DNA of 64,000 nucleotides from Lysobacter sp. yr284 (GTDB lineage: Bacteria; Pseudomonadota; Gammaproteobacteria; Xanthomonadales; Xanthomonadaceae), in the NCBI RefSeq assembly GCF_900107375.1, contig NZ_FNPT01000023.1:1-64000 (forward strand), given 5' to 3'. Both the position numbers and the translations under genes were made by a program. Below are positions 1 to 55,349 of the stretch, piece by piece. The notes below the pieces were generated by a model, which saw nothing but the letters and a program-made list of their open reading frames with translations, was not told the origin of the DNA and did no database searches. The stretch's first letter is position 1; the number at the start of each line of letters is the position of its first letter.

Positions 1-3000
1 GCCGGCCTGGTCGTAGGCGAGCTTGATCCGGCCCTGTTCGTCGTAGACGTAGCGCGAGAATCCGGGCGCCCAGTTCTTCACGCTCTGGTTGCTGGCCTGG
101 ACCATGATCTGGGTCTGCTTGGCGCCGTCGAACCAGACGTAGTCGTAGCTGGTCTTGACCGTGGTCGCCTCGCCGTAGGTCTCGGTGAAGTCGACCGTGC
201 CGTCGTTCAGACGATAGGTGATGGTGCCGGTGTTGGCCTGGTTGTCGTGCTCCTGCATCAGCAGGCTGTCGTTGTCCCAGTAGCGCGTGCTGCTGCTCTT
301 GAGCGCGCCGCCGGCGTCGTACTCGTAGTAGTCGCCGACCCGGCCGGCCTGGTCGTTGACCCGGCGCGCGCGCAGCACGCCGTCGATGGTGGTGTCGGTG
401 AGGTAGCCGCGGGCGTCGTAGTCGTAGCGCTCCAGATGCCCGTCGCGTCCGTAATGGGCCGAGCGGCGCTGGTTGGCGGCATCGTACGAGATCGTCACGC
501 CGTCGCCGCCGCTGCCCTCCCACACGCCGACGCCGGTGTCGGCGGCGCTGCTGCCGCGGGTCTTGTTGTCGGTCCCGAGCTGGCCCATGGTCACCACGAA
601 CCGGTTCATGTTGTCGTAGCGGTACCAGTACTCCTGCTCGCGGGTCGCGCCGTTGAGTCCGTCGCGATACAGCGAGTGCATGCGGATGCGGTTGCCCTGC
701 GCGTCGAACTCGTAGGTGATCTCGTAGCGCGGGTCCTCGACCTTGATCAGGCGGTTGAGCGCGTCGTAGGTGCCCTTGGACTGCTGGAACGCCCAGTTGC
801 CGTCCTTGCCGGTGAAGCCCTCGAAGGTGCGGTTGCCGTTCTCGTCGTACTCGTAATAGCCCTTGATCCCGCTGGCGCTGTCGCTCATGCGCTTGATCAG
901 GGCGTTGGCGTAGTACTCGTACACGGTGCTGCCGGATTTCCGGAGCAGGCCGGCGTAGTTGTACTCGTAGCCGAACGCGTGGCCGCCCAGGTCGATGTGG
1001 CTGAGCTTGCGGCCCAGCGCATCGACCAGGTCGGTCGTGCTGCGGCCGTTGGCGTCGGTCATGACCCGGCGCCAGGCGCCGTTGCCGTTGTCGGCTTGCG
1101 CGTCCCAGGTCGCGGTGTAGGTGGTGGTGCGCCCCGCGGCGCTGACCACGCGGCCGACGTCGCCGTCGATGGTGAAGTCGGTCGTGGTCGCGCCGAGCAG
1201 GCTGCTGGTGTGGCGGGTGCGGCGGTCGAGTTCGTCGTAGGCGTAGCTGTCGACGATGCTGCCGCTCTCGGCCGCGTCCTTGGGCCGCTCGATCCAGATC
1301 AGGCGGTTGCCGAGGTCGTAGCCGTAGCGGGTGCGGCGGCCGATCTCATCGACCACCACGCGCTGGTTGCCGAACACGTCGTACTGGAACCGCTTGAACC
1401 CGCCGTCGGCATGCCACTCGCCGACCAGGGTCGGCTGGGCGCTACCGTAGTTCCAGGCCTGGGTGGTCAGGTTGCCGTTGGCGTCGCGATAGGCGACCAC
1501 GCTGCCGGCGAGGTCGTAGACGTAGTCGACGCTGGGATTGAGCTGTTCGCGGAAACCGTTGGCGTGGGTGATCCAGACCGTCGGATCGGTCTTGCGCACC
1601 AGCTTGCCCAGGGTGTTGTAGACCAGCGCCGTCGCGTTGCCGCGGCCGTCGATCTCGCGCGCGATCTCGCCGAAGGCGTTGTAGTCCTGGCGGCGGTGGA
1701 TGGTCAGCGACGACGGCTCGAAGTTGCGCAGCTCCCAGCTGGCCTCGGTGGCCGGGCGGTCGTTGTCGGCCCAGAAATAGCCGCTGTTGCGCACCAGGCT
1801 CTGGCCGCCGGCCGGATTCTGCGCGTCGGCCAGGGTGCGGAAGACGTCGTAGAAGTACTCGTAGGTCGCTTCCTTGTTGAGGCCCAGGCTGTCCCAGCGG
1901 AACTTGCCGTCGCCGCCGCGCAGGATCGTCACCTGCTGGAACGCCGCGTTGACGTCGCCCTCGGGGCGGTAGTGCAGCACCAGCACCTGCCCTTCGGGCT
2001 GCTGCGGATCGAGGTTGAGCGTGTACAGATGCCCGTCGACCTGGATCGTCGCGCCGGGCTGGCGCTGCGGGCCGACTTCGATGACGCCCGCAGCGGTGTA
2101 GCTGCTCGGCGGCACCACCAGGTTGTCGGTGAAGGTCAGCGCCAGGCGATAGCGGCGCACGCCGCCGCCGGCCGCGGCGAGGATCTCGGCCGGAATCGGC
2201 CAGATGAGCTGGCCATTGGCGACGGCCAGTCCCGGCGCGGACCAGGCCACGCTGCCGTCGTCGTTCAACAGCTTCAGATCGACCGAGGACGCGTTCGGCG
2301 GCAGGTTGCCCAGGCGCACGACGTCGGCGTCGTGGGCGAAGTCGATCGCCACCCGCGGCGCGGCGCCGACGCTCACTTCGCCGGCCACGCTCTCGATCAC
2401 CGCGTTCTGGCCGTTGAGCAACTTGAGCACGACTTCGTAATCGCCGCTCAGGCCGGCGGTGTCCCAACGCACGCTGCCCGGCGTCGCCATCGGCGGCAGG
2501 CCGCCGAGCGCGGCGGTGCCGGTCCAGGCGTCCTGGCTGCCCTTGCGCCGGTACTCGACCACGACCTTGTCCGGCGCTTCGCTGCGGCGGGTCAGCAGAT
2601 TGCTCATGTCCAGGCCGCCGGCGGTCCACACGAACGTGCCCAGGCCGTTGCTCTGGAAGGCGTTGTCGGCGGTCTCGGCGACCCGGACGACGGACTGGCT
2701 CGGACCGACGGTGAGGTCGTATTCCTCGCGACGCATCAGCGCGCCGTCGGTGCGGGTGGCGAGGTACAGGACTTCATACTGGCCGTCGGCCAGCGCGGCG
2801 ATATCGGCCGTGGCCTTGCCTTGCTGGAAGTCGCGCTGCACCGCCAAGGCCTGGTACGGCCCGGTCGAGCCCTTCGCGCGCACGTACACCTGCGGCGAGA
2901 CGTCGGCGCGGTAGCCGTCGATCGGCAGTTGCAGAACGTCCGGCGAGAATTCGCTCGGCGTGCCGAGGTCGACGGTGGCGTTGAGGTCGGTGCGACCGAG

Positions 3001-6000
3001 GGTGTAGTCGATCCGGATCTCGGTGTTCCAGTTCCAGTCGCGATCCCAGGTCAGCCTGGCGCCGACCGTCTTGCTGCCCAGTTCCAGTTCGCGGCCGCCG
3101 CCGCTGCCCTTCGGCGTCACGAACACCTTGAGCGCGAAGTTCACATGGACTTCGCGATTGTCGCCGTTGCGCAGATTGAACAGACCGACGGGCACATCGA
3201 TGGTCAGGTTGGTGCCGCCGTTGGGGCTGTACAGATAGCCCTGCCCCGACAGCGGCTCGGTGACGATCCGTTGCAGATCCACCGAATACGCGGTCTGGGT
3301 GCCCTCGATGACCACGCGCACGTCGTATTCGCCGAACGCCGCGGTCATGTCGGGAACGAATACGCCGTACTTCATCAGGTCCGGTGGCCAGTTGTCGGAC
3401 GTGCTGCCGCCGTTCTGCTGGGCCCAGCCGCGATCGCTGTAGACGCCGGAGACCTGGCCCAGCGAACCCGAGAACGGCGTGATCGCGATCGAACCGTCGA
3501 CGCCGCCCAACGCGGGATTGCGCGCCTGCGCGCCCAGGCGCCCGCCCACCGAAGCCTGGATCTGGCCCGGCCGCACCGGCTGCACCGTCACCGTCTTCAG
3601 CCCGAGGCGTTCGCCGGCGGTGGTCATCGCCGCCTGGATCACGTCGATGGCCTGGTTGCGGCGGTCGTACAGGGTCAGCGTCGTCGCCAACTGCGCCGAT
3701 TCCTCGGCCGAAGCGCCGAGCACGCGCTCCAGCGTCCACGCCGCGGAGGCGAGGTTGATCGTCTGCGACTCGATCCGCACCGCCGCGTTGCCGGCGCCGT
3801 CGTAGATGTTCAGGCGGGTCACGCCGCCGTCCATGTTGCTCTTGAGCACGCGGCCGGCATAGTCGTACTCGGCGACCTCCTGCCACCCGCTCGGCCCGGT
3901 GCCGCGGCCGGTGACGTCGCCGAACAGGTTGTAGCGCGTGCGCCGCTCGACGCTGCGGCTGCCGTCGCTGGCGACGGTGATGCGACCGGTCTCGCGGTTG
4001 TCCAGGTCGTAGGCGATCTGGATGGTCTCGGTGCGCTGGCCGCCGGCGGAATCGGTCCGCTGGTAGCTCATCGAGATCATGTTGCCGATCGCGTCGTAGC
4101 CGAAGCGGGTGGTGAAGTTCAGCGCATTGGTCTTGGACAGCAGGCGCCCGCCGTTGCCGTAGACGTAGGTGGTGGTTTGGTCCTGGTCGCTGCCGGTGCC
4201 GCGGCGCAGCTCCTTCACCACCTGGTTGAGCCCGTTGTAGCTGTATTCGGTGCGCGCGACCACGCTGCGCCCGGCGTAATCGACGAAATCCGGCAGGCTC
4301 ACCGCGGTGTTGCGGCCGGCCTTGTCGTATTCCCAGCCGAACACGCTGCCGTTGGCGTCGGTGCGGCGCAGCAGGTTGCCGGCGGCGTCGTAGGCGTAGG
4401 AGGCGGTCGCGGTGGCGACCGCCTCGGTCAGGCGGCCGGTGAGCGGATCGACGCTGCCATAAGCCACGCCCAGCCGGGAATCGCTCAGCCGCCGCCCCAT
4501 CTTGTCGTAGGTGTAGACGGTAATGCGGTCGTCGATGCTGCGCGGCCAGTCGAGGATCAGCTGCTCCGCCTCGCCGTTGGCCGACGCCCCAGCGGCCGAC
4601 AAGCTCTGCGCAGGGGGCAGTTGGCGGCCCGCGTAGCGGATTTCCTCGAGCACGTTGCCTTCGGCGTCGCGCTGCCAGGAAATGCCGAATCCTTCGCCGT
4701 CGATTTCCAGGCGCTTCTGGCCGAGAGCGTCGTAGTAGGTGCGGGTCTGGTTGCCGGCGCCGTCGCGATGCGAGACCGCACGGCCGTTGCCGTCGTACGT
4801 CCAGCGCTCGACGATGTCGCTGCCGTCGATCGCATAGCTGCGCTGCGGGTTTCCGTTCGCGTCGACGCCGTCGCGCAGCGTTCCATGCACCACGCCCACG
4901 GTGGTGGCCTGGATGCGGCGGCCGTTGGCGTCGTACGCGAAGCGCTGCTCGCGCGCGGGGCTGGGCTGGCCGGTGGCCGGATCGACCGGAATGGCCGGCA
5001 ACGTCGCGCCCGCCGGCAGGCTGACCGGACTCGCGAACGCGCGCGTGCGGATCAGGTTGCCGGCCTTGTCGTACTCGTTGAGCGTCAGCCTGCCGTTGGC
5101 ATCGACCTGGCCGGCCAGGCGGTCGGCGGCGTCGTAGTAGTAGACGGTGCGGGCGTTGTTGCCGCTGTACTTCTCCACCACGTTGCCGCGCGCGTCGTAG
5201 AAGAACTCGTCGTAACTTCCGCCGGCGGTGCCGTCGTCGTTGATGGCGTAGACGCCGGTCACCTTGATCCGGTTCAACGCATCGTAGTTGTAGGTGGTGA
5301 TGCGCGGGTCCGCGCTGTCGCCCGATTCCTTCTTGTAGACGACGTTGCCGTGGGCGTCGTAGTTGAAGTAGTTGGCGACCGCGGTCGGGCTGCCGCCCCA
5401 CCGCGACGGCGCGTCGATCGGCAGGCGCTCGGTCACCATCCGGCCGAGCCTGTCGTAGGAATACGAGGACGTGCCGCCGAGCTTGTTGGTGTACTCGCTG
5501 CGGTTGCCGAATGCGTCATAGCGATACGTTTCCACCGCCTGGGCCGCATCGGTGGCGCTGACCAAGCGTCCGAGCAGGTCGTACGCCATCCGGGTGACCG
5601 CCGCCGCTCCGGACGGATCCAGCGGCGGTTCGGCACCGGCGGCAACCGCCCCAACCCGCGCATAGAAGCGGGTCACGCTGACCGGCTGGCCGAGGAATCC
5701 GTACTCGGTGCGGGTCAGGTAGCCCTCGGGATCCACCTGGTGGGTTGTCCGGCCCAACGCATCGAAGTAGAAGTAGCCCGTGTTCCCCAGCGCATCGGTC
5801 ACGGCGACGGCGTTGCCGAAGGCGTTGTAGGTCCGCGTCACGCTCGCGCCCAGCGCATCGACGCTTTCGACCGCGCGCCCCATGCGGTCGTAGACGGTGC
5901 GGCTGGTGTAGCGCGCACGCAGCTCGTCCTGCCGCGCCTGACCGAGGTCGGCGGCGCGCAGGGCCGCGCCGGTCTCGTTGACGTAGCCCAGGCTCTTGCG

Positions 6001-9000
6001 CATGTCCAGCGCCCAGGCCGAATCGGATTCGGCCAGTTCGACCCCGCGCGGGTCGACGGCGGCCACGGCCTGGCCGAACGCGTCGTAGGCGGTCCGCGAT
6101 ATCGCCGCGGCAGCGGTGTCGGCGGCGCGGATTTCTACGATCATCCGCCCGGCCGCGTCGTAGCTGCGCCGGGTCGCGACCTGCGCGGCGGTGCCCCAGG
6201 CCGCGTATTCGACCAGCACCTGGCCCAGCCCGTCGCGCTGGTAACGGCGCACCGCGCCGGCGGCGTCCACGGTCTCGGACATGCGGCCGGCCGCGTCGTA
6301 GCCGAACCGGGTGGTGCGCTCGCCTTCGCCCATCGCATCGACCAGCGTGCGCAGGCTGGCGACCGTGTCGGCGAGCGCGATGGCGCGGTCGCCGGGACGG
6401 CCCCACTTGCGCTCGTAGCGCGTGGCGGCGATCCGATTGCCCGCCGCGTCGTACTCGGTGCGGTTGAAATAGTCCTCGGCGTCGTAGCTGAAGATCGCTC
6501 GGCCGGCGCCGTCGTAAAACCACATCGTGGTCGGGTTGGACAGCCGGTTGGCGCCGCCCATCAGCGCAACCCACGCCTCCATCGCCTCCACCGTGTAAGC
6601 GCTGGGACGCGGATAGGGCCCATCGACCGACGGCCGCATTCTGACGCTGGCCCGCAACAGCCCGGCCGCATCGTACGTGTTGCGGGTGGCGCGGCCGCCG
6701 GCATCGATTTGCCAGACCGCGCGCCCGGCCGCGTCGAACACCCAGCGGTTTTCTGCGGTCTGCTCGCCGGGCTGCGCCGCCGCCCAAGCCTCCAGGCTGG
6801 CCGTATCGATGCCCCCTGCAGAAGGATAGGGAGCGGCGAACTTCGCGCTGGCGACCAGATTGCCTCCGGCGTCATAGCGATTGCGGGTGAGATACCCGCC
6901 GGCATCGATACGGAACGCCAGGCGCCCGGCGGCATCGTAGACGTTGCGCTCGACCCTGTCCGCCGCATGCGCGGCGCCGGACTGCGCAGTCAGCGCGGCG
7001 GCGACGTTGGCCGGCGTCGCCAGGGCGGTCAGGACCACGGCCGTGGCATAGGCCACGCTGCGCACCACGTTGCCGCTCGCGTCGTAGACCGATTCGGTCA
7101 CATAGCCCAGCGAGTCGATCGTGTAGCGCAGGCGGCCATCGCGATCGAACACCTGGCGCAGCGTTCGGTCCTCGCTCGCATTGGGCTGCAGACGCGCCTG
7201 GATCTGCTCGACGGTGACGGCCGGGTCGAGCCCGGCCAAGTCGATCGCCCTTGCGAAGCGGGTGATGCCGACGAAAGCGCCCGAGTACGTGTCGTAGTCG
7301 CGCCGCTCCACCGCACCGTCCGCACCGACCGTGAGCAACAATTGATCGGCGCGGTCGTACACGTAACGGGTGACATGGCCGTTCGCGTCGGTGCGCGCGA
7401 CCACATTGCCGCCCGCGTCGTACGCATAGCGCGTCGTCAGGGCCAGGCCGCCCGGATCGGCGATGGTCGCGATGAGACGGCCGGCCTTGTCGTACTGATG
7501 CTCGGCGACTTGGGCCGCACTGGTGCCCGAGCCCGCGGTCGTGCGCACGGTTCGGCCCAAGGCATCGTATTCGAAAGTCGTGGCCAGATTGAGCCGGCCC
7601 TCGCCGGCATCGACCACGACCGCGACCTTCTGTCCCCTGAGGTCGTAGCGGGTCTCGGTCACGCTGCCGTTCGGATCGGTCGTGCGGACCAACTGGCCCT
7701 TGGCGTCGTACGCGTACGCGGTCTTGATCGCCAAACCGTTCGGGTCGAGCGTGCGGGTCAGCACGCGCCCGGCCGGGTCGTATTCGAACACGGTCTTGAC
7801 GCCGCGCGCATCGACGGTCTCGATCGCCTGTCCGGCCTGGTCGTAGACCGTGGACACCGTGCCGGCCGGCGACGTCGTGCGGATCAGGCGGCCGTCGAGA
7901 TCGTATTCGTACACGGTGGCGTTGCCGCGGCCGTCGATCAACTCGACGATCTGGCCGTGCTCGTTGTAGCGGCTCTTGGTGACCACGCCCTCGGCCGTGG
8001 TCACCTGGATTTCGCGGTTGAACGCGGTATAGGCGTAGCTCGTGTTGCCGGCGATGCCGGTGGCCGTGTACTCGGTGCGGGTCAGTACGTTGCCGAACGC
8101 GTCGTAGCTCAACATATAGCTGGGCAACGAATAGGAACGATCGAAGCCCATGGTCGCCCGGCCGTTGCGGTCGTAGGCGACCGAAACGGCGCGGCGGACT
8201 ACGCCCTTGATGTCGCTGGTCTGGGTGTTGGTCACCCGTCCGAACGCATCGCGAATCTGCCAGTTGATCAGTCCCAGGGGCGCGGCACCGAGCGCATCGA
8301 CGGTCTCGGTATTCTGCCGGCCGGCGCCGTCGTAGCTGTAGACGGTTTGAATCCAGTTGGCGTACGTCCGCGCGTAGTCGCTCCAGCGGTTGACTTTTTC
8401 GACCGTGCCGGAGGTCGTATACGTCCATTCCGTATAAGCGCCCAGCGCATCCACCGACCGCGCCAGCGCGCCGGTGATCGCGTAGCTCAGGGTCGTGCGG
8501 CTGGCCTGCGCATCGTCCAGGGCCGCGATGGCGTCGCCCGCGCTTTGGGTGAGCGCGCCGCCGTGCATCTGCCCGAGCGACAGCGACGTCAGTCGCTTGG
8601 CGTAGACGATGGCCTGGGCGACGTCGCCGAACGCGTTGTAGCGCTGCTCGGTCACTTCGCCGAACGGATTGACCGTATGGGTTAGGCGGCCGAGGCTGTC
8701 GTAGTAGTAGAGCGTCGAACGGTCCAAAGCATCGATCATCGCAGTGCGCCGGCCGCCGGCATCGTACTGGTAGCGCACCGCACGATCCGCCCATACCGCA
8801 TCGATCGCGGCCTGCGAGGGGTTGGCCCCGAGCGCTTCCAAGGCCTTGACGCCCTCACCGCTGAGCTCGGCGACAACGCGCCCTTGCAGGTCGTAGCGGT
8901 AGTTCGATTTGCGGTCGCCGCGGCGTTCCGCTGCCACTCGGCCGAGGCTGTCGTAGCTGCGCTGCGAGTCGACGTTGCCGCTGCTGGAGTACTCGGTCTG

Positions 9001-25270: not shown

Positions 25271-25308
25271 TCGCGCCCATCTTCCCCACACCTTCCGACC
25301 GCCTTCTC

Positions 25309-25422
25309 ATGCGCATCGAATCGACCATCGCCAAACACAACGCGCAAGGGCATAGCCCCGCGGTGTTTGCGTGCGCGTCGATCCCGCGCGGTCGCGGCCG
25401 GGATACGCGCACCCCGCACTGA
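25309..25422 (+). CDS. Putative 37-aa leader peptide of an attenuator
   Basis: The ORF begins MRIESTIAKHNAQGHS and ends PRGRGRDTRTPH. The last 11 codons include four Arg codons (CGC, CGC, CGG, CGC). Its TGA (25420-25422) overlaps the first segment of a chain of mutually exclusive hairpins, which is the expected geometry for a leader whose translation sets transcription termination. Weak points: no Shine-Dalgarno sequence is visible before the ATG, and the peptide is not dominated by one amino acid. It could therefore be a chance ORF. Confidence 0.45.
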   Translation: MRIESTIAKHNAQGHSPAVFACASIPRGRGRDTRTPH

Positions 25423-25500
25423 TCTTCCATTCCAGGAAGATCGGTCGCTCCGATCTTCCGAGGAAGGCCACGCCCTCGGACCACACTCCGGGGGCGTTTT
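25421..25500 (+). promoter_or_regulatory. Attenuator: competing hairpins ending in an intrinsic terminator
   Basis: Segments are A GATCTTCC (25421-25428), B GGAAGATCGG (25435-25444), C CCGATCTTCC (25450-25459), C' CCGAGG (25458-25463) and D CCTCGG (25474-25479). A:B pairs over 8 bp, B:C over 10 bp and C':D over 6 bp. The terminator stem pairs 25471-25479 with 25488-25496, followed by TTTTCGTTTC. A:B excludes B:C, and C':D excludes the terminator. A ribosome on the leader stop codon would cover A, allow B:C and favour termination. An earlier stall would leave A:B and C':D, allowing read-through. Confidence 0.6.
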
Positions 25501-25819
25501 CGTTTCGGGCGTCGGCAAAGGATTTGCTGCAGGAATCACCTTAAAAATCGCTCTTTCCGCATACCCCCGGAGCATCCGAGACGAAGGGGATCGACCGTAG
25601 AGGCGTCGAAAGACGCTGTGCCTGGATGCTTCGGCACGGGCGGCGCGTGCGCGAAAGAAACCCACAAGGGCGCTTGCGCCCGAATGGATTGCCGTCCGGA
25701 GACGGGCGGCAATAGGCAGCACCCGATGAAACGCACCGCAGCGGCGCCGGTTTCCGACCGGCCCGGTGCGCGCGGCCCTGCCGTGGCGTATGCCGCGGTG
25801 CGTGGAGGGGCTCCAACCT
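25501..25819 (+). other. Hairpin-rich untranslated stretch of the RNA-repair operon
   Basis: No gene is seen here. Several short perfect hairpins follow each other: GGCGTC-GAAA-GACGCT (GNRA loop, near 25602), GGGCG-CTTG-CGCCC (near 25670), GCCGTC with GACGGGC (near 25695), and CCGGT-TTCCG-ACCGG (near 25755). The run leads straight into the two tRNA-like elements, so this is probably structured transcript. Confidence 0.45.
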
Positions 25820-25890
25820 AGGGAAGTAGCTCAGCGGTTAGAGCGGCGCCTCGTGCGCAGGCCGTCGGTTCGATTCCGACCTTCTCTGCC
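25820..25890 (+). ncRNA. tRNA-like element 1 (degenerate anticodon arm)
   Basis: A 7-bp acceptor stem forms between AGGGAAG (25820-25826) and CTTCTCT (25881-25887). The D arm is GCTC-AGCGGTTA-GAGC with the usual GG. The T arm is GTCGG-TTCGATT-CCGAC with a canonical T loop. Only 19 bases separate the D and T stems, instead of about 22-23. They fold as a 4-bp stem (GCGC) with a 5-base loop CTCGT, so no normal anticodon loop exists. The 3' end is GCC followed by G, so CCA is not encoded. It abuts element 2. Confidence 0.7.
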
Positions 25891-25958
25891 GGATATAGCT
25901 CAGACGGTTAGAGCGCAGCAAATGATGCTGTTGTCGCGGGTTCGACTCCCGCTATCCA
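25891..25958 (+). ncRNA. tRNA-like element 2 (degenerate anticodon arm)
   Basis: GGATA (25891-25895) pairs with TATCC (25953-25957), only 5 bp where a tRNA has 7. The D arm is GCTC-AGACGGTTA-GAGC and the T arm GCGGG-TTCGACT-CCCGC, both canonical. The anticodon arm is CAGCA-AATGA-TGCTG: a good 5-bp stem with a 5-base loop, or a 7-base loop lacking U33 if read as a 4-bp stem. It starts immediately after element 1, so the two form a tandem dimer. It is unlikely to decode. Confidence 0.7.
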
Positions 25959-26358
25959 CTGTCCTGAAACGACAGTCGTTGAACGCGGAACGAAAGTTCC
26001 GATCCGGGAAACGCCCCGCGCGGCGTTCCTCTTCGCATCGCCGGCACGGGACGCGCGAAGGAACGTCGCAGCGGCGATGCCGCCGGCTTCATGCCCGGCG
26101 AGCGATGGCGCACGACGCACGGCATCGACCACAACGGACGTGGCGATGCCGGCGGCGACCGCGCCACGCCCGCCGCGCATGCGGTCCGCGACGACGACGC
26201 CAGGGGCGTTCCCACCCTATTGCCTTCCGCCGCGCTCGTGCGGCGGAATCCCGGAATTCGCGTCGCCGACGCGATCCGCCGCGCCGTTGCGACATTCCGA
26301 TTCGGTCGCAGCGGCCCACAACACGGATCGGACCACACCGGAACCCAAGGAGACGATC
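25959..26358 (+). other. Structured 5' region of the slipin-RtcB operon
   Basis: No gene is evident between the tRNA-like pair and the slipin gene. Perfect hairpins include ACTGTC-CTGAAAC-GACAGT (25958-25976), CGGAAC-GAAA-GTTCCG with a GNRA tetraloop (25986-26001), and TTCCGCCGC-GCTCGT-GCGGCGGAA (26225-26248). The first begins at the 3' edge of tRNA-like element 2, so the non-coding RNA may extend through it. Confidence 0.5.
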
Positions 26359-27489
26359 ATGTTCTGGACGAAGAAGGTCGTGGTCGGCGATGCCGAGCGC
26401 GTCCTGGTCTATCGCAACCGCCGCATCGAGCGCGTGCTCGGCCCGGGCGTGCACATGCTGCGCGACCTGCGCGACGAGCTCACCCTCGACCAGCACAACA
26501 TCGGCAACAGCGCCTACGCCGGCAACGACGGCGAAGCGCTGATCGCCGGCCTCGGCGAGCGCCTGTCCGAGCACTTCGTCCTCGCCGACATCGGCAACGA
26601 CGAAGTCGGCCTGGTGCTGCGCAACGGCCGCTACGCCGAAGTGCTGGCGCCCGGCATGCGCCGCCTGTACTGGAAGGGCCTGGCGACGATCGACGTGCGC
26701 GCGCTGGCGCTGGCCGAGGGCCTGGAGATCGAGCGCGAGGTCGCCGATGGCCTGCGCCAGATCGCCCAGCTCGACCGCGTCGCGGCGCACGGCGCCGTGC
26801 CGACCGAGTCGGCCGGCCTGCTGTTCGTCGACGGCAAGTTCGTGCGCGTGCTGGCGCCGGGCGCGTACGCGTTCTGGAACCTGCGCAAGAACGTCGCGGT
26901 GGAGACCGTGGAGTTGCGCGTGCAGGCGATGGAAGTCTCCGGCCAGGAACTGCTGACCCGCGACAAGGTCACCCTGCGCGTGAACCTCGCCGCCAGCGTG
27001 CGCGTGGCCTCGCCGGTGGCCGCGCGCACCAAGGTCGCCAAATACGCCGAACACGTCTATCGCGAGCTGCAGTACGGCCTGCGCAAGGCGGTCTCGTCCA
27101 AGACCCTGGACGAACTGCTCGGCGACAAGGCCTCGCTCGACGCGGACATCCTCGCCAGCGCGCGCGGCGCCTGCGCCGAGATCGGCGTGGACGTGCTCGG
27201 CGTCGGCGTCAAGGACGTGATCCTGCCGGGCGAGATGAAGGACATCCTCAATGCGGTGGTGCAGGCGGAGAAGACCGCCCAGGCCAACACGATCCGCCGC
27301 CGCGAGGAGGCCAACGCGACCCGCAGCCTGCTCAACACCGCCAAGCTGATCGAGGACTCTCCGGTGCTGATGCGCCTGAAGGAACTCGAAGCACTGGAAA
27401 AGATCACCGAGAAGATCGACAAGCTGACCGTCTTCGGCGGTCTGGAGGGAGTCATGAAGCAGCTCGTCAGCCTCAAGGGCCACGGCTGA
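26359..27489 (+). CDS. Slipin / SPFH (band 7) family protein
   Basis: The 376-residue protein opens with a short hydrophobic-aromatic stretch (MFWTKKVVVGD) and has two repeated beta modules (RVLVYRNRRIERVLGPGVHML and GLLFVDGKFVRVLAPGAYAFW). The SPFH core follows at about 195-310 (VTLRVNLAASVRVA ... YRELQYGLRKAVSSKTLDELLGDK). A helical tail contains the QAEKTAQANTIRRREEANATRSLL segment typical of slipins. There is no long membrane helix, so membrane contact is peripheral. AAGGAGA precedes the ATG. Slipins next to RtcB are a recurrent arrangement in bacterial RNA-repair operons; the mechanistic link is unknown. Confidence 0.9.
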   Translation: MFWTKKVVVGDAERVLVYRNRRIERVLGPGVHMLRDLRDELTLDQHNIGNSAYAGNDGEALIAGLGERLSEHFVLADIGNDEVGLVLRNGRYAEVLAPGMRRLYWKGLATIDVRALALAEGLEIEREVADGLRQIAQLDRVAAHGAVPTESAGLLFVDGKFVRVLAPGAYAFWNLRKNVAVETVELRVQAMEVSGQELLTRDKVTLRVNLAASVRVASPVAARTKVAKYAEHVYRELQYGLRKAVSSKTLDELLGDKASLDADILASARGACAEIGVDVLGVGVKDVILPGEMKDILNAVVQAEKTAQANTIRRREEANATRSLLNTAKLIEDSPVLMRLKELEALEKITEKIDKLTVFGGLEGVMKQLVSLKGHG

Positions 27490-28511: not shown

Positions 28512-29732
28512 ATGAGTACCTCCCACTACGAACTGCTCCACGCCGACGAAGGCGTGGCCCCAGTCAAGGCCTGGATCCGCGGGGTGCCGGTCGACGAGGG
28601 CGCCAAGCGACAGCTGCGCAACATCGCCGCCCTGCCCCATGTCGGCCCCTGGGTCGCGGCCATGCCCGACGTGCACCTCGGCAAGGGCGCCACGGTCGGC
28701 TCGGTGGTGCCCACGCGCGGCGCGATCATCCCCGCTGCGGTCGGCGTCGACATCGGCTGCGGCATGGCCGCGGTGCGCACCACCCTGCAGGCCAAGGACC
28801 TGCCCGACAGCCTGGCCCGCGTGCGAGCGGCGATCGAGCATTGCGTGCCGGTCGGCAACGGCCGCGGCGGCGAACACCGGCGCCTGCCCGACAGCCACGC
28901 CACCCGGCTGGCGAAATCGGGGCTGGCGGCGCGGCTGGACGCGATCCACGCAAAGCACCGCAAGCTGCGCACCGACAAGCTCGACAAGCAGATCGGCACG
29001 CTCGGCGGCGGCAACCACTTCATCGAGCTGTGCCTGGACGAGGCCGGCGCGGTGTGGGTGATGCTGCATTCCGGCTCGCGCGGCACCGGCAACCTGATCG
29101 GCAGCTACTTCATCGAGCTGGCACGGATGAAGCTGGAGAAGCGCACGCTCGGCTTCCATCTGCCGGACAAGGACCTGGCCTTCCTGCTCGAAGGCGAGCC
29201 CTTGTTCGACGACTACGTCGAAGCCGTCGGCTGGGCCCAGGACTACGCCCGCCACAACCGCGAGGCGATGATGGACCGGGTGCTGCACGCCATGCGCATC
29301 CAGCTGCCGAAGTTCCAGCTCGACAAGACCGCGGTCAACTGCCACCACAACTACGTCCAGCGCGAGGAACACTTCGGCGAGCCGTTGTGGGTGACGCGCA
29401 AGGGCGCGGTCAGCGCGCGCGAGGGCGAGCTCGGGATCATTCCCGGCAGCATGGGCGCGCGCAGCTACATCGTGCGCGGCAAGGGCAACGCCGACAGCTT
29501 CCACAGCTGCAGCCACGGCGCCGGCCGGGTGATGAGCCGGACCGAGGCGCGCCGCAGCATCACCCTCAAGCAGCACCGCGAAGCCACCGCCCACGTGGAA
29601 TGCCGCAAGGACGCGGCGGTCATCGACGAATCGCCGGCGGCGTACAAGCCGATCGAGGCGGTGATGGCGGCGCAGGCCGACCTGGTCGAGGTGGTGCACA
29701 CGCTGCGCCAGGTGGTCTGCATCAAGGGCTGA
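28512..29732 (+). CDS. rtcB: RtcB, tRNA-splicing/RNA-repair ligase
   Basis: At 406 residues this is full length. RtcB joins RNA 2',3'-cyclic phosphate or 3'-phosphate ends to 5'-OH ends using GTP and Mn2+. Key features are present: GVDIGCGM with D80 and the metal ligand C83, LGGGNHFIEL near 175, HSGSRGTGN near 190, NCHHNYV near 277, PGSMG near 317, and SCSHGAGR with the guanylated H335. The gene follows the orphan by three bases and is the last of the operon, closed by a strong terminator. No archease or RtcA gene is present in the window, nor an RtcR activator. Confidence 0.97.
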   Translation: MSTSHYELLHADEGVAPVKAWIRGVPVDEGAKRQLRNIAALPHVGPWVAAMPDVHLGKGATVGSVVPTRGAIIPAAVGVDIGCGMAAVRTTLQAKDLPDSLARVRAAIEHCVPVGNGRGGEHRRLPDSHATRLAKSGLAARLDAIHAKHRKLRTDKLDKQIGTLGGGNHFIELCLDEAGAVWVMLHSGSRGTGNLIGSYFIELARMKLEKRTLGFHLPDKDLAFLLEGEPLFDDYVEAVGWAQDYARHNREAMMDRVLHAMRIQLPKFQLDKTAVNCHHNYVQREEHFGEPLWVTRKGAVSAREGELGIIPGSMGARSYIVRGKGNADSFHSCSHGAGRVMSRTEARRSITLKQHREATAHVECRKDAAVIDESPAAYKPIEAVMAAQADLVEVVHTLRQVVCIKG

Positions 29733-31413: not shown

Positions 31414-31458
31414 ACCGATACAGATTCAGTTAGGATGAATTTCGACCGGTACAGTTTC
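31414..31458. promoter_or_regulatory. Direct-repeat operator between MocR and EamA genes
   Basis: ACCGATACAGATTC (31414-31427) and ACCGGTACAGTTTC (31445-31458) match at 12 of 14 positions. They are 31 bp apart, three helical turns, in the same orientation. MocR dimers bind such same-face direct repeats. The site lies 51 bp from the transporter start and about 140 bp from the regulator start. Confidence 0.65.
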
Positions 31459-31535
31459 GTCCTGCTGTCGTGCTTGCCGTCTAGCGGACTGGGCGGGATC
31501 GAGACGAGGGTCCGGCGGTTCGCGGCGGTACGCGC

Positions 31536-31560
31536 GCCCTCGCCCCAACCCCTCTCCCGC
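31536..31560. repeat. Intergenic repeat family 2, single arm
   Basis: The sequence GCCCTCGCCCCAACCCCTCT and following bases match, in reverse orientation and with one mismatch, the right half of the hairpin repeat at 51454-51494. This identifies a short interspersed repeat with at least two copies here. Confidence 0.7.
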
Positions 31561-31596
31561 GAGTGGAACAAGAGCTTTCGTGTTGCGAGGTTCGTC

Positions 31597-33018
31597 ATGT
31601 CCCAGGAACTGCTCTACGAACGCCTCGCCGAGCGCATGCGCCGGCAGATCCAGCGCGGCGTGCTGCGCGCCGGCGAACGCCTGCCGTCGCTGCGCCGGCT
31701 CGGCCGCGACCAGCGCATCAGCCTGGCCACCGCGGTGGAGGCCTACCAGCAGCTCGAACGCGAGGGCCTGATCGAAGCGCGGCCGCGCTCGGGCTACTAC
31801 GTGCGCGCGGCGCCGGCGGCGGCGCCGCGCAGCCACCGCGCGCGCCACCTCGCGCGCGCGCCGACGCCGATGCGCAATCCCGCCCTGCTCGGCGTGCTCG
31901 ACGTGCAATCGCGCCGCGACCTGGTGCCGCTGCACGCTGCCACCCCGGCCGCGGCGCTGCTGCCCAGCGCCGCGCTGGCCGCCTCGGTGACGCGGGCGAT
32001 GCGCCGCGATCCCGCCGTCGCGCTCGGCTACACCGTGCCGCAGGGCTTGCCGGCCTTGCGCGAGCGCATCGCCCAGCGCTACGCGCAATGCGGCGTGGAG
32101 ATCGATCCCGACGAGGTCATCGTCACCGCCGGTGCGATGGAGGCGATCAGCCTCACCCTGCGCACGCTGACCCGTCCCGGCGACATCGTGATCCTGGAAA
32201 CTCCCACCTACCACGGCCTGCTGCAGGCGGTGGCCGCGCACGGGCTGCGCGTGCTGGAGATCCCCAACCATCCCGGCCGCGGCCTGGACCCGGCGCACCT
32301 GCGCGAACTGCTCGAACGCCACGCCGTGCGCGCGGCGCTGCTGGTGCCGAACTTCAACAACCCGCTCGGCAGCCTCACCGGCGAGGCGGCCAAGCGCGAG
32401 ATCGTCGCCGCCTGCGCCGCGCACGGCACGGTGCTGATCGAGGACGACCTCTACGGCGAGCTGGCCTATTCGGGCGAACGCCCGGCGCCGCTGCGCCGCT
32501 TCGACGACGGCGAACACGTCGTCACCTGCGGCTCGTATTCGAAGATCCTCGCGCCGGGCCTGCGCGTGGGTTGGATGCTCGGCGGGCGGCGGCGCTCGGA
32601 GCTGCTGCGCACCAAGAGCTTTTCCACGGTCGCCACCGCGACCCTGCCGCAACTGGCGCTGATCGACTTCCTCGCCCGCCACGACATCGAACGCGGCCTG
32701 CGCCGCCTGCGCCGCGCCCTGGCCGGCAACGCCCAGGCGTACCGGCAGGCGCTGCTGGACTACTGGCCCGACGGCACCTGCGTGGCCGAGCCGGCCGGCG
32801 GAATGACGCTGTGGGCGGAGTTGCCGGAAAGCGTCGACGGCCAGGCGCTGTTCGAAGCGGCGCTGGCGCGCGGCATCGGCATCCTGCCGGGGCACCTGTT
32901 CTCCAACCGCGGCGACTACACCCACCACGTGCGGCTGAGCTGCGGGCAGCCGTGGGACCGCAAAATGGAGACGGCGCTAAAGACGCTGGGGCAGCTGGCC
33001 AAGCAGCTCGCGCGATAG
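31597..33018 (+). CDS. MocR-type regulator (GntR winged helix + PLP aminotransferase fold)
   Basis: From ATG 31597 the product has 473 residues. The N-terminal GntR domain (about 1-75) reads LYERLAERMRRQIQRGVLRAGERLPSLRRL with the DNA-binding helix at ISLATAVEAYQQLEREGL. The rest is a fold-type I aminotransferase domain. The PLP-binding lysine is in SYSKILAPGLRVGW, the Asn/Asp contacts are in NFNNPLG and IEDDLYGEL, and the C-terminal part contains HVRLSCG. Such proteins use PLP as an effector sensor. It likely controls the divergent EamA exporter through the direct repeats. Start codons further upstream would run through the operator and a repeat element, so they are disfavoured. Confidence 0.93.
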   Translation: MSQELLYERLAERMRRQIQRGVLRAGERLPSLRRLGRDQRISLATAVEAYQQLEREGLIEARPRSGYYVRAAPAAAPRSHRARHLARAPTPMRNPALLGVLDVQSRRDLVPLHAATPAAALLPSAALAASVTRAMRRDPAVALGYTVPQGLPALRERIAQRYAQCGVEIDPDEVIVTAGAMEAISLTLRTLTRPGDIVILETPTYHGLLQAVAAHGLRVLEIPNHPGRGLDPAHLRELLERHAVRAALLVPNFNNPLGSLTGEAAKREIVAACAAHGTVLIEDDLYGELAYSGERPAPLRRFDDGEHVVTCGSYSKILAPGLRVGWMLGGRRRSELLRTKSFSTVATATLPQLALIDFLARHDIERGLRRLRRALAGNAQAYRQALLDYWPDGTCVAEPAGGMTLWAELPESVDGQALFEAALARGIGILPGHLFSNRGDYTHHVRLSCGQPWDRKMETALKTLGQLAKQLAR

Positions 33019-54570: not shown

Positions 54571-54680
54571 CGCAGGCGCTCGCAGGATCGGGCGCACCAT
54601 GGTCGCGCCGGCGGCGGACAAAGGAAAGTACGCGGCCGGCCGGCTGCGCGATGGCGGCGGGCCCGGCGGACGCGCAAAAG

Positions 54681-54706
54681 AAAAGCCCGGCTTGCGCCGG
54701 GCTTTT
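54681..54706 (-). terminator. Intrinsic terminator of the cold-shock gene
   Basis: AAAAGCCCGGC-TTGC-GCCGGGCTTTT is an 11-bp perfect stem. On the minus strand it is followed by CTTTTGCG, giving a T-rich tail. It lies 37 bases after the csp stop codon and could work in both directions. Confidence 0.93.
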
Positions 54707-54743
54707 CGAACTGCTTAGAGCAGTGCCTTGGCAGGCGGGCCGC

Positions 54744-54953
54744 TTACAGCGGCTGCACCTGATCGGCCTGCAGGCCCTTCTGGCCCTGGGTCACGATGAA
54801 GGACACCTTCTGACCTTCCTGCAGGCTCTTGAAGCCGTTGCCGAGGATGGCGCGGAAGTGCACGAACACATCGTCGCCGCTCTCGCGGGAGATGAAGCCG
54901 AAGCCCTTGGCATCGTTGAACCACTTGACAGTGCCGGTCTCGCGATCAGCCAT
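54744..54953 (-). CDS. Cold-shock protein (CspA family)
   Basis: The 69-residue single CSD protein reads [30 protein letters not shown], containing both RNA-binding motifs (KGFGFI and VFVHF). It binds single-stranded RNA and DNA and melts RNA secondary structure. An AAGGAGTT ribosome site lies seven bases before the ATG. A long untranslated leader with a GGGTCAC/GTGACCC hairpin at 55071-55092 precedes it, as is usual for csp genes whose leader folds with temperature. An intrinsic terminator follows. Confidence 0.97.
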
Positions 54954-55349
54954 GTTTGCTAACTCCTTGAAACATAATGTTGAAGTACCGCTTTCGCGGC
55001 GTTGGAGCTGGTCGCAAGGAGGAAGCGTGGGACGATGGAGTGGATCTATGGATCGACGATCTACGGCATCGGGTCACGACCTACGGTGACCCTTGACTAA
55101 CTCAGCACGCACACCGTAGTGGCCTGCGCAACGAAAATCAATCGGTCCGAAGCAGGTTTTCGTCGGTCGCGCCTGGCTGAATTCGCCTTCGCGACCCCGA
55201 CCATCCGGCTAGCCGGTTGATTTTGATGGATTTTTCTGCGTATACGGTTCGAAAGCCCCGTTCAGCCAAAAAGTCGCGGGCGTGTGCCTTTCTTTGCCGG
55301 CGGTCACGCCGCGGCTGCGAATCCGATCGATCCGCGCCCGCCGGGCGGT
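54954..55349. other. csp leader/promoter region and spacer
   Basis: 396 bp without a gene. The part nearest csp contains the hairpin GGGTCAC-GACCTACG-GTGACCC and short repeats of ATCTAYGG/ACCTACGG, likely in the csp untranslated leader. The remainder, towards the HEAT-repeat gene end, shows no feature. Confidence 0.5.

Follow-up and report, generated by a model that had tools for sequence, protein, structure and literature searches.

Which RNAs do bacterial RtcB systems watch and mend? An operon of Lysobacter sp. yr284 poses this question in a concrete form: what are the two tRNA-shaped RNAs that lie back to back in its 5′ leader, and with which of its genes do they belong? The DNA analyzed, called the window here, is a stretch of 64,000 nucleotides (contig NZ_FNPT01000023.1, positions 1 to 64,000, forward strand). 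An earlier note on this DNA had placed two tRNA-like elements in the untranslated part of an operon ending in the RNA ligase RtcB, and genes for a slipin, a protein X, and RtcB were found to follow them on the same strand. The two elements can, with good support, be identified as a conserved tRNA mimic that belongs to the 5′ leader of slipin(-RtcB) RNA-repair operons. They add a candidate to the RNAs in question, and their constant partner is slipin, not RtcB. The elements and the genes are as follows.

25820..25888, + strand: tRNA-like element 1, with a 7-bp acceptor stem, D arm, 4-bp "anticodon" stem, 5-nt loop, and T arm; no CCA
25889..25960, + strand: tRNA-like element 2, with a 5-bp acceptor stem, D arm, "anticodon" stem, 5-nt loop, and T arm; no CCA
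26359..27489, + strand: slipin gene (Band 7/SPFH), the neighbor that constantly accompanies the pair; PF01145, 99.2 bits
27639..28508, + strand: protein X, of a family of unknown function, without a match in Pfam, NCBIfam, or PADLOC; present in 26 of 100 genomes, its own included
28512..29732, + strand: RtcB RNA ligase; PF01139, 420.2 bits

Structure and covariation of the tandem elements

Both elements matched the Rfam tRNA model RF00005 from end to end, with 53.1 bits for element 1 and 43.5 bits for element 2 (gathering score 29). The tRNA covariance model, a type of check that the earlier note had proposed, thus recovered the two abutting elements with canonical D and T arms that it had described, each as an unpermuted cloverleaf in which the D arm precedes the T arm. 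No family except tRNA reached its gathering score at the pair in the Rfam scan; the tmRNA model RF00023 had no match in the window leader, and the YrlA model RF02553 had none in 25300-26500 at E values up to 5. Acceptor pairing was 7 of 7 in element 1 (AGGGAAG/CTTCTCT) and 5 of 7 in element 2, in line with the stems of 7 and 5 bp reported before. The stretch between the D and T stems measured 19 nt in element 1 and 21 nt in element 2, both folding with a 5-nt loop by minimum energy, so that the short anticodon arms of the earlier description were reproduced, and no CCA is encoded after either element, again as stated there. Its end of the pair at 25976 was not upheld, because that stretch takes in a separate hairpin (25958-25976); element 2 ends at 25960, 398 nt 5′ of the slipin start codon.

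The two elements were then compared with 20 ordinary tRNAs of the same genome, which were high-scoring ones out of its 54 ordinary matches. All of these (20/20) had 22-23 nt between the D and T stems, a 7-nt loop, U33, and a purine at position 37. Among the 56 tRNA matches genome-wide, element 1 ranked 51st and element 2 ranked 56th. ARAGORN called element 2 alone, as "His(atg)", a reading in which the stem has 4 bp and the 7-nt loop lacks U33.

The earlier note had looked to covariation as a check on the stems, and covariation was found in both acceptor stems and both anticodon stems. Across 48 aligned dimers, the 36 pairs showed 95.6% standard pairing, and there were 250 double-changed cells compared with 62.4 in shuffled alignments (0 of 500 shuffles reached 250) and 40-77 in slid controls. 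The anticodon stem of element 2 was paired at 99.8% versus 66.8% in shuffles (n = 93, 23-nt region). For element 1, the corresponding values were 92.9% versus 83.0% in the class with a 20-nt region (n = 28) and 96.7% versus 62.6% in the class with a 23-nt region (n = 24).

The loops, by contrast with those of a decoding tRNA, were free to vary. Although the tRNA model is matched, the window elements lack a 7-nt loop with U33, and no conserved anticodon was found: the 93 element 2 sequences with a 23-nt region held 61 distinct loops and 31 "anticodons", with U33 in 59/93. In element 1 of the family outside Lysobacter, a 4-nt loop was present in 29 of 42 unique parsed sequences, and GNRA tetraloops occurred in 14 of 28 element 1 sequences (GAAA 6, GCAA 5, and GCGA 3). 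Element 2 was also short in its acceptor stem, with only 4 or 5 of the 7 positions paired in 113/147 cases. The earlier view that the elements should not decode is therefore in agreement with the 5-nt loops of the window, the incomplete presence of U33, and the 31 anticodons, and they are apparently non-decoding. Its shrunken arm proved to be the form taken in Lysobacter by a more widespread RNA; other family members mostly have a 4-nt loop in element 1 and often a scrambled loop of normal size in element 2.

Several observations count against the reading as a conserved, non-decoding mimic. In the 19-nt class of element 1, to which the window itself belongs, a fixed 5-bp anticodon stem was paired at 56.7% versus 54.0% in shuffles (n = 12), so this fixed register is unsupported in the window's own subgroup. 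Element 2 often keeps a 7-nt loop, and a purine at position 37 in 89/93 of its sequences is tRNA-like and speaks against a full loss of constraint on the anticodon loop. The commonest anticodons of element 2 were GTT (20/93) and CAT (10/93). Because of these 7-nt loops, the purine 37, and the two common anticodons, some members might still act as tRNAs; many loops outside the family also look canonical. Finally, CCA follows the element 1 discriminator directly in 11/96 unique cases, which fits processing into a free RNA. With these points counted, the pair is very probably a selected tRNA mimic that is not used for decoding. To judge from the aligned sequences, its tRNA body (the D and T arms, the elbow, and the paired stems) is kept under selection, and its anticodon loop has been freed or removed.

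Conservation of the pair and its constant partner

The pair was present upstream of slipin in 20/20 Lysobacter genomes when cmscan and ARAGORN were taken together, and 19 relatives shared the order slipin-X-RtcB. Compared with the closest relative, the pair was identical at 141/141 positions; the rest of the leader was close as well, with 318/331, 252/261, and 79/80 and, in 26041-26358, 299/333.

To extend the search, which the earlier note had also suggested, 48 dimer sequences were used to train a covariance model, R1. The family supplied 34 of them, and the other 14 came from among the 66 outside loci described below; the scores of these training sequences are partly by construction. A slipin was counted as being of this type when it matched at E values up to 1e-30, and such genes were found in 101/297 family genomes, 73/299 at the order level, 22/369 at the class level, and 23/398 at the phylum level, in samples that overlap. 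In the 297 family genomes, 79 R1 matches scored 109 bits or more, a line applied inside the family only. Of these, 78 lie 334-670 nt 5′ of slipin on the same strand, and the 79th is on a different contig of a slipin-bearing genome. No match of at least 109 bits occurred among the 196 family genomes without slipin, and no family genome had a second dimer match at this level, the dimer model being blind to a lone element. Other family matches reached 106.2 bits and had a longer span, and they were taken as ordinary tandem tRNAs.

Among the 101 family genomes with slipin, 12 had no listed R1 match near it. Eight of them (G128, G154, G216, G231, G259, G321, G171, and G156) have two T arms by pattern, and two (G183 and G148) have one T arm, G148 also having a partial R1 match of 66.9 bits; G174 has a short contig, and the upstream stretch of G020 lay outside the comparison.

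Outside the family, R1 matched upstream and on the same strand at 61/66 slipin loci, 54 of them at full length, and at 47/52 when the 14 training loci were excluded; 7 further matches lay elsewhere within the 66 loci. A strict T-arm pattern, applied to 178 slipin upstream stretches that include some genomes twice, detected a pair of T arms, spaced 56-94 nt, in 161 and was negative in 17, four of which are contig ends. When 210 genomes were sampled at the class level, the top R1 scores belonged to the window and two slipin genomes (124.6, 121.1, and 117.1 bits). R1 matches away from known slipin reached 113.9 bits in this sample; they had a longer span and were taken as ordinary tandem tRNAs. 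A universal R1 cut-off was therefore rejected, and R1 alone is insufficient for a new case at the class level.

The association is not without exceptions. Five of the 66 outside-family slipin loci gave no R1 match, one of them (L321) being a contig end, and the leaders of Escherichia coli and Citrobacter retain only T-arm-like remnants; the E. coli slipin leader had no Rfam match at E values up to 1. With coverage of at least 80% of the query, the E. coli slipin locus was found in 1621/5426 complete genomes. The small size of the elements, together with the occurrence of such a locus (with a reduced leader) in many E. coli, makes direct testing of the question feasible. In one E. coli locus (L329, 5817-8270), slipin and a DNA polymerase beta superfamily gene lie between yjbD and lysC, and a sigma-54-like site was read in the E. 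coli slipin leader in L325. Other loci depart from two elements: L281 and L286 have three tRNA-like elements in a row, and L268, L270, L278, and L284 have, after a full tRNA-like element, a lone hairpin whose loop resembles an anticodon loop, and then a GNRA hairpin and a T arm, a downstream part with a reduced tRNA-like shape.

To determine which gene accompanies the pair, the slipin loci were examined for RtcB. RtcB was present in 78/80 fetched family loci outside Lysobacter and in 11/11 loci of the sister family, and in 9/20 class loci and 6/15 phylum-level loci (L310-L324), for which less flank was covered. In the 20 further order-level loci, RtcB was present in 3; the other 17 show no RtcB in the stretch available (up to about 3.3 kb past slipin, some shorter), which counts against a fixed tie to RtcB, and in these same 17 tandem T arms still sit before slipin. 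RtcB thus cannot be assumed as the partner, and because it varies at the order, class, and phylum levels, slipin is the constant partner. RtcB as constant partner was rejected, given that slipin loci without a nearby RtcB still carry the pair. The link to RtcB drawn in the earlier note stands in so far as the operon ends in RtcB and RtcB is nearby in most family loci; the constant neighbor is slipin.

Protein X was also rejected as the partner: an ARAGORN tRNA occurred in 1/63 loci of X relatives without slipin, R1 gave 2 matches in 38 of those 63 loci, and X was found in just 10/80 of the non-Lysobacter family loci that have slipin. A tRNA-mimic RNA is tied in cis to slipin in many Proteobacteria. 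The SPFH gene PA14_60630 of Pseudomonas aeruginosa has been assigned to the rtc locus in a 2026 paper, in the main text of which the word tRNA is absent (PMC13086221).

RtcR was found divergent from and next to slipin at 8 loci (Burkholderia L327, Citrobacter L326, L281, L311, L312, L313, L315, and L318), a count made with short flanks at most other loci. A strict sigma-54 motif was present in 14/181 upstream sets versus 3.1 expected in shuffles. In eight of the 14, the motif is a TGGCAC site that precedes the pair or what remains of it, and seven of these are in RtcR loci. RtcR and a sigma-54-like site occur together in L311, L312, L313, L315, L318, L326, and L327, and not beside the window operon, which has no adjacent RtcR, no RtcA, and no Rsr/TROVE gene. 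The sole strict sigma-54 motifs of the family (L179, L184, L186, and L221) are far upstream of the pair. Instead of a near sigma-54 site, the Lysobacter leader has a small ORF and terminator-like hairpins.

Some further arrangements were noted around these genes. Relatives of protein X, in 218 stretches of genome contigs, are near RtcB in some lineages and not in others (Variovorax). In Povalibacter uvarum (L090, 43-6771), 22 ARAGORN tRNA calls surround RtcB and are followed by slipin and X; one call overlaps on the other strand and one is just before slipin. A tRNA-His(gtg) lies between rtcB/an rtcA-like ORF and X in a Collimonas metagenome-assembled genome (L096, 2208-6825), and a His/Asp tRNA pair lies between divergent rtcR and rtcB in L048 (3207-3360).

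The surrounding leader and a second RtcB operon

The pair is embedded in a leader with further features, listed here.

25309..25422, + strand: upstream ORF of 37 codons, conserved and possibly encoding a leader peptide; start and stop columns identical in 20/20 Lysobacter
25420..25500, + strand: alternative hairpins, then a terminator-like hairpin with a T run; read from the sequence and the alignment
25563..25819, + strand: structured domain of the leader immediately 5′ of the pair; RNAalifold gives 10 helices, including an 11-bp hairpin
25958..25976, + strand: lone hairpin, stem of 6 bp and loop of 7 nt (CTGAAAC), directly 3′ of element 2; read from the sequence
25986..26026, + strand: hairpin with a GAAA loop (25986-26001) and hairpin ACGCC/GGCGT (26011-26026); read from the sequence, a conserved block in the Lysobacter leader alignment

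The domain at 25563-25819 showed 59 double-changed cells versus 16.3 in shuffles, and 0 of 500 shuffles reached 59; the alignment scored, of 14 of the 20 Lysobacter sequences, had also been the source of the fold, which favors it. Some relatives, too, have what appears to be a hairpin like that at 25958-25976 after the pair. The 37-codon ORF is possibly a leader peptide; the pattern of its substitutions by codon position was without a sign of protein constraint, third positions being the least changed (1737 versus 2315 and 2172). Together, the small ORF and the alternative and terminator-like hairpins (25309-25500) possibly form an attenuator ahead of the tRNA mimics.

A second RtcB operon was found on another contig of the same genome (L330, C35:112500-122500). 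At 975-7383, it has the order rtcR / TROVE-like (rsr) - YrlA - YrlA - rtcB - rtcA, in which the rtcB and rtcA names were read from translations. The two YrlA RNAs scored 70.8 and 63.6 bits (RF02553, gathering 69), the second just under the threshold, and the TROVE-like ORF scored 21.5 bits with PF05731, under the cut-off of 23. In these YrlA RNAs, the T arm comes before the D arm. In one genome, both RtcB operons thus carry tandem tRNA mimics, and the mimics of the two differ in topology. This suggests that tRNA mimics are generally a working part of RNA repair.

The pair resembles several known systems in part. Like YrlA (RF02553; rsr-yrlBA-rtcBA), it is a tRNA mimic with D and T arms in an RtcB RNA-repair operon; YrlA, however, is permuted with the T arm first, whereas the pair consists of unpermuted cloverleaves in a slipin leader without an Rsr gene. 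The thrS operator is an mRNA leader that imitates tRNA anticodon arms to control its own gene. The pair shares with it a leader that mimics tRNA and differs in that its anticodon loop is the most variable part. The tRNA-like domain of tmRNA, which lacks an anticodon arm, is likewise a tRNA mimic linked to RtcB, but the window elements are full cloverleaves. Passages of one study report this domain as a ligation target of RtcB (PMC9650030). The RtcR-controlled rtcBA or rsr-yrlBA-rtcBA operon, as far as passages of its description go, is similar in its RtcB ligase and in the RtcR found at the 8 slipin loci (PMC7790460). Compared with it, the window operon has slipin and X, and the mimics with a possible attenuator, and neither an adjacent RtcR nor RtcA. 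In Anabaena, according to passages of a study of the TrcR regulon, one repressor joins rtcB, a slipin gene, and a 26-tRNA operon in a translational-stress response (PMC10272220). The cyanobacterial trn array is on a megaplasmid, away from rtcB and slipin, whereas the window has two apparently non-decoding elements in cis. Among the papers listed from the open PubMed Central literature (titles, abstract starts, and passages), none showed tRNA-like elements before slipin; Burroughs and Aravind 2016 and Chen et al. 2014 could hold an earlier mention.

Possible roles of the pair

The recurring pairs point to an unrecognized RNA in the cell's response to broken tRNAs. Our tentative reading, the likeliest of those considered although short of even odds, is that the pair is a cis sensing or decoy control element of its operon, in which we infer transcription, binding, competition, and the direction of control. 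A repair protein that binds the tRNA elbow (RtcB, slipin, or another product) would bind the tandem mimics in the operon's leader. As long as few broken tRNAs are present, this protein would stay on the leader and expression would be held down; once they accumulate, the protein would be drawn off the leader and the operon would be expressed, so that the leader would count free repair capacity. Because the tRNA body and elbow are kept and the loop is freed, a protein that recognizes the elbow rather than the anticodon is the likely reader. Cis action is favored by the fixed place in the leader and by the finding that no family genome has two dimer matches reaching 109 bits, and a long structured leader around the pair is as expected for a cis regulator. 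Of the roles that the earlier note had listed, a decoy or sensor fits; no support for a guide was found in this analysis. A more elaborate and unlikely version is a built-in break detector, in which the mimics would be bait that is cut by tRNA-breaking nucleases or damage and resealed by RtcB, the cut or sealed state of the leader setting expression. In Lysobacteraceae, element 1 might then be an uncuttable tetraloop reference beside a variable, cuttable element 2.

The same elements might instead act in trans. In this case, RNase P and RNase Z would release them, and the free mimics would serve, in the manner of Y RNAs, as an adaptor, as a competitive inhibitor (of anticodon nucleases), or as a scaffold of the repair complex. 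The tandem YrlA RNAs in the other RtcB operon of this genome, the full acceptor stem of element 1 in the window, and the CCA sometimes encoded after its discriminator are consistent with release, and passages of Hughes et al. 2020 suggest that the tRNA-like domain of YrlA may inhibit an anticodon nuclease (PMC7790460). However, the acceptor stem of element 2 is mostly incomplete, the family genomes lack a second dimer match (a lone element would be invisible to the model), and the window operon has no Rsr/TROVE gene; we regard a trans-acting RNA as only slightly less likely than control in cis. It is improbable that the cloverleaves are merely processing or stability punctuation, shaping the 5′ end of the slipin mRNA as signals for RNase P/RNase Z or as blocks to exonucleases. 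tRNA structures are established processing signals and the matches lie 5′ of slipin on the same strand, but two copies, the removal of the anticodon loop, and the structured domain upstream would be left unexplained.

Two readings would keep the elements as true tRNAs or as their remains. Special-purpose, stress-induced extra tRNAs used in translation would recall the trn operon of Anabaena, which passages of the TrcR study join to rtcB and slipin (PMC10272220), and the Povalibacter tRNA array with RtcB, slipin, and X, and canonical-looking loops are common outside the family. The tetraloops and 5-nt loops, the absence of U33 in 34/93, the 31 anticodons at one orthologous site, and the short acceptor stem of element 2 make such a use very unlikely. 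Decay of ordinary tRNA genes, which might account for the low RF00005 ranks, has almost no probability left: the pair is conserved in both the family and the class, its acceptor and anticodon stems showing compensatory changes, and a source copy in the genome was sought and gave only partial matches, the longest being 59 nt at 78% to a tRNA. Decayed copies were ruled out on these two grounds. Absence near rtcB in relatives, lack of covariation, and decay, the three outcomes that the earlier note had named as fatal to its view, are thus all contradicted by the data.

Two other RNA calls were made in the window. A cspA thermoregulator RNA (RF01766) scored 79.5 bits (gathering 78) at 54677-55123 on the minus strand. 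ARAGORN reported a 98-nt tRNA-His at 32774-32871, inside the GntR/aminotransferase ORF at 31435-33018; since Rfam has no match there at the gathering score, this is probably a false call.
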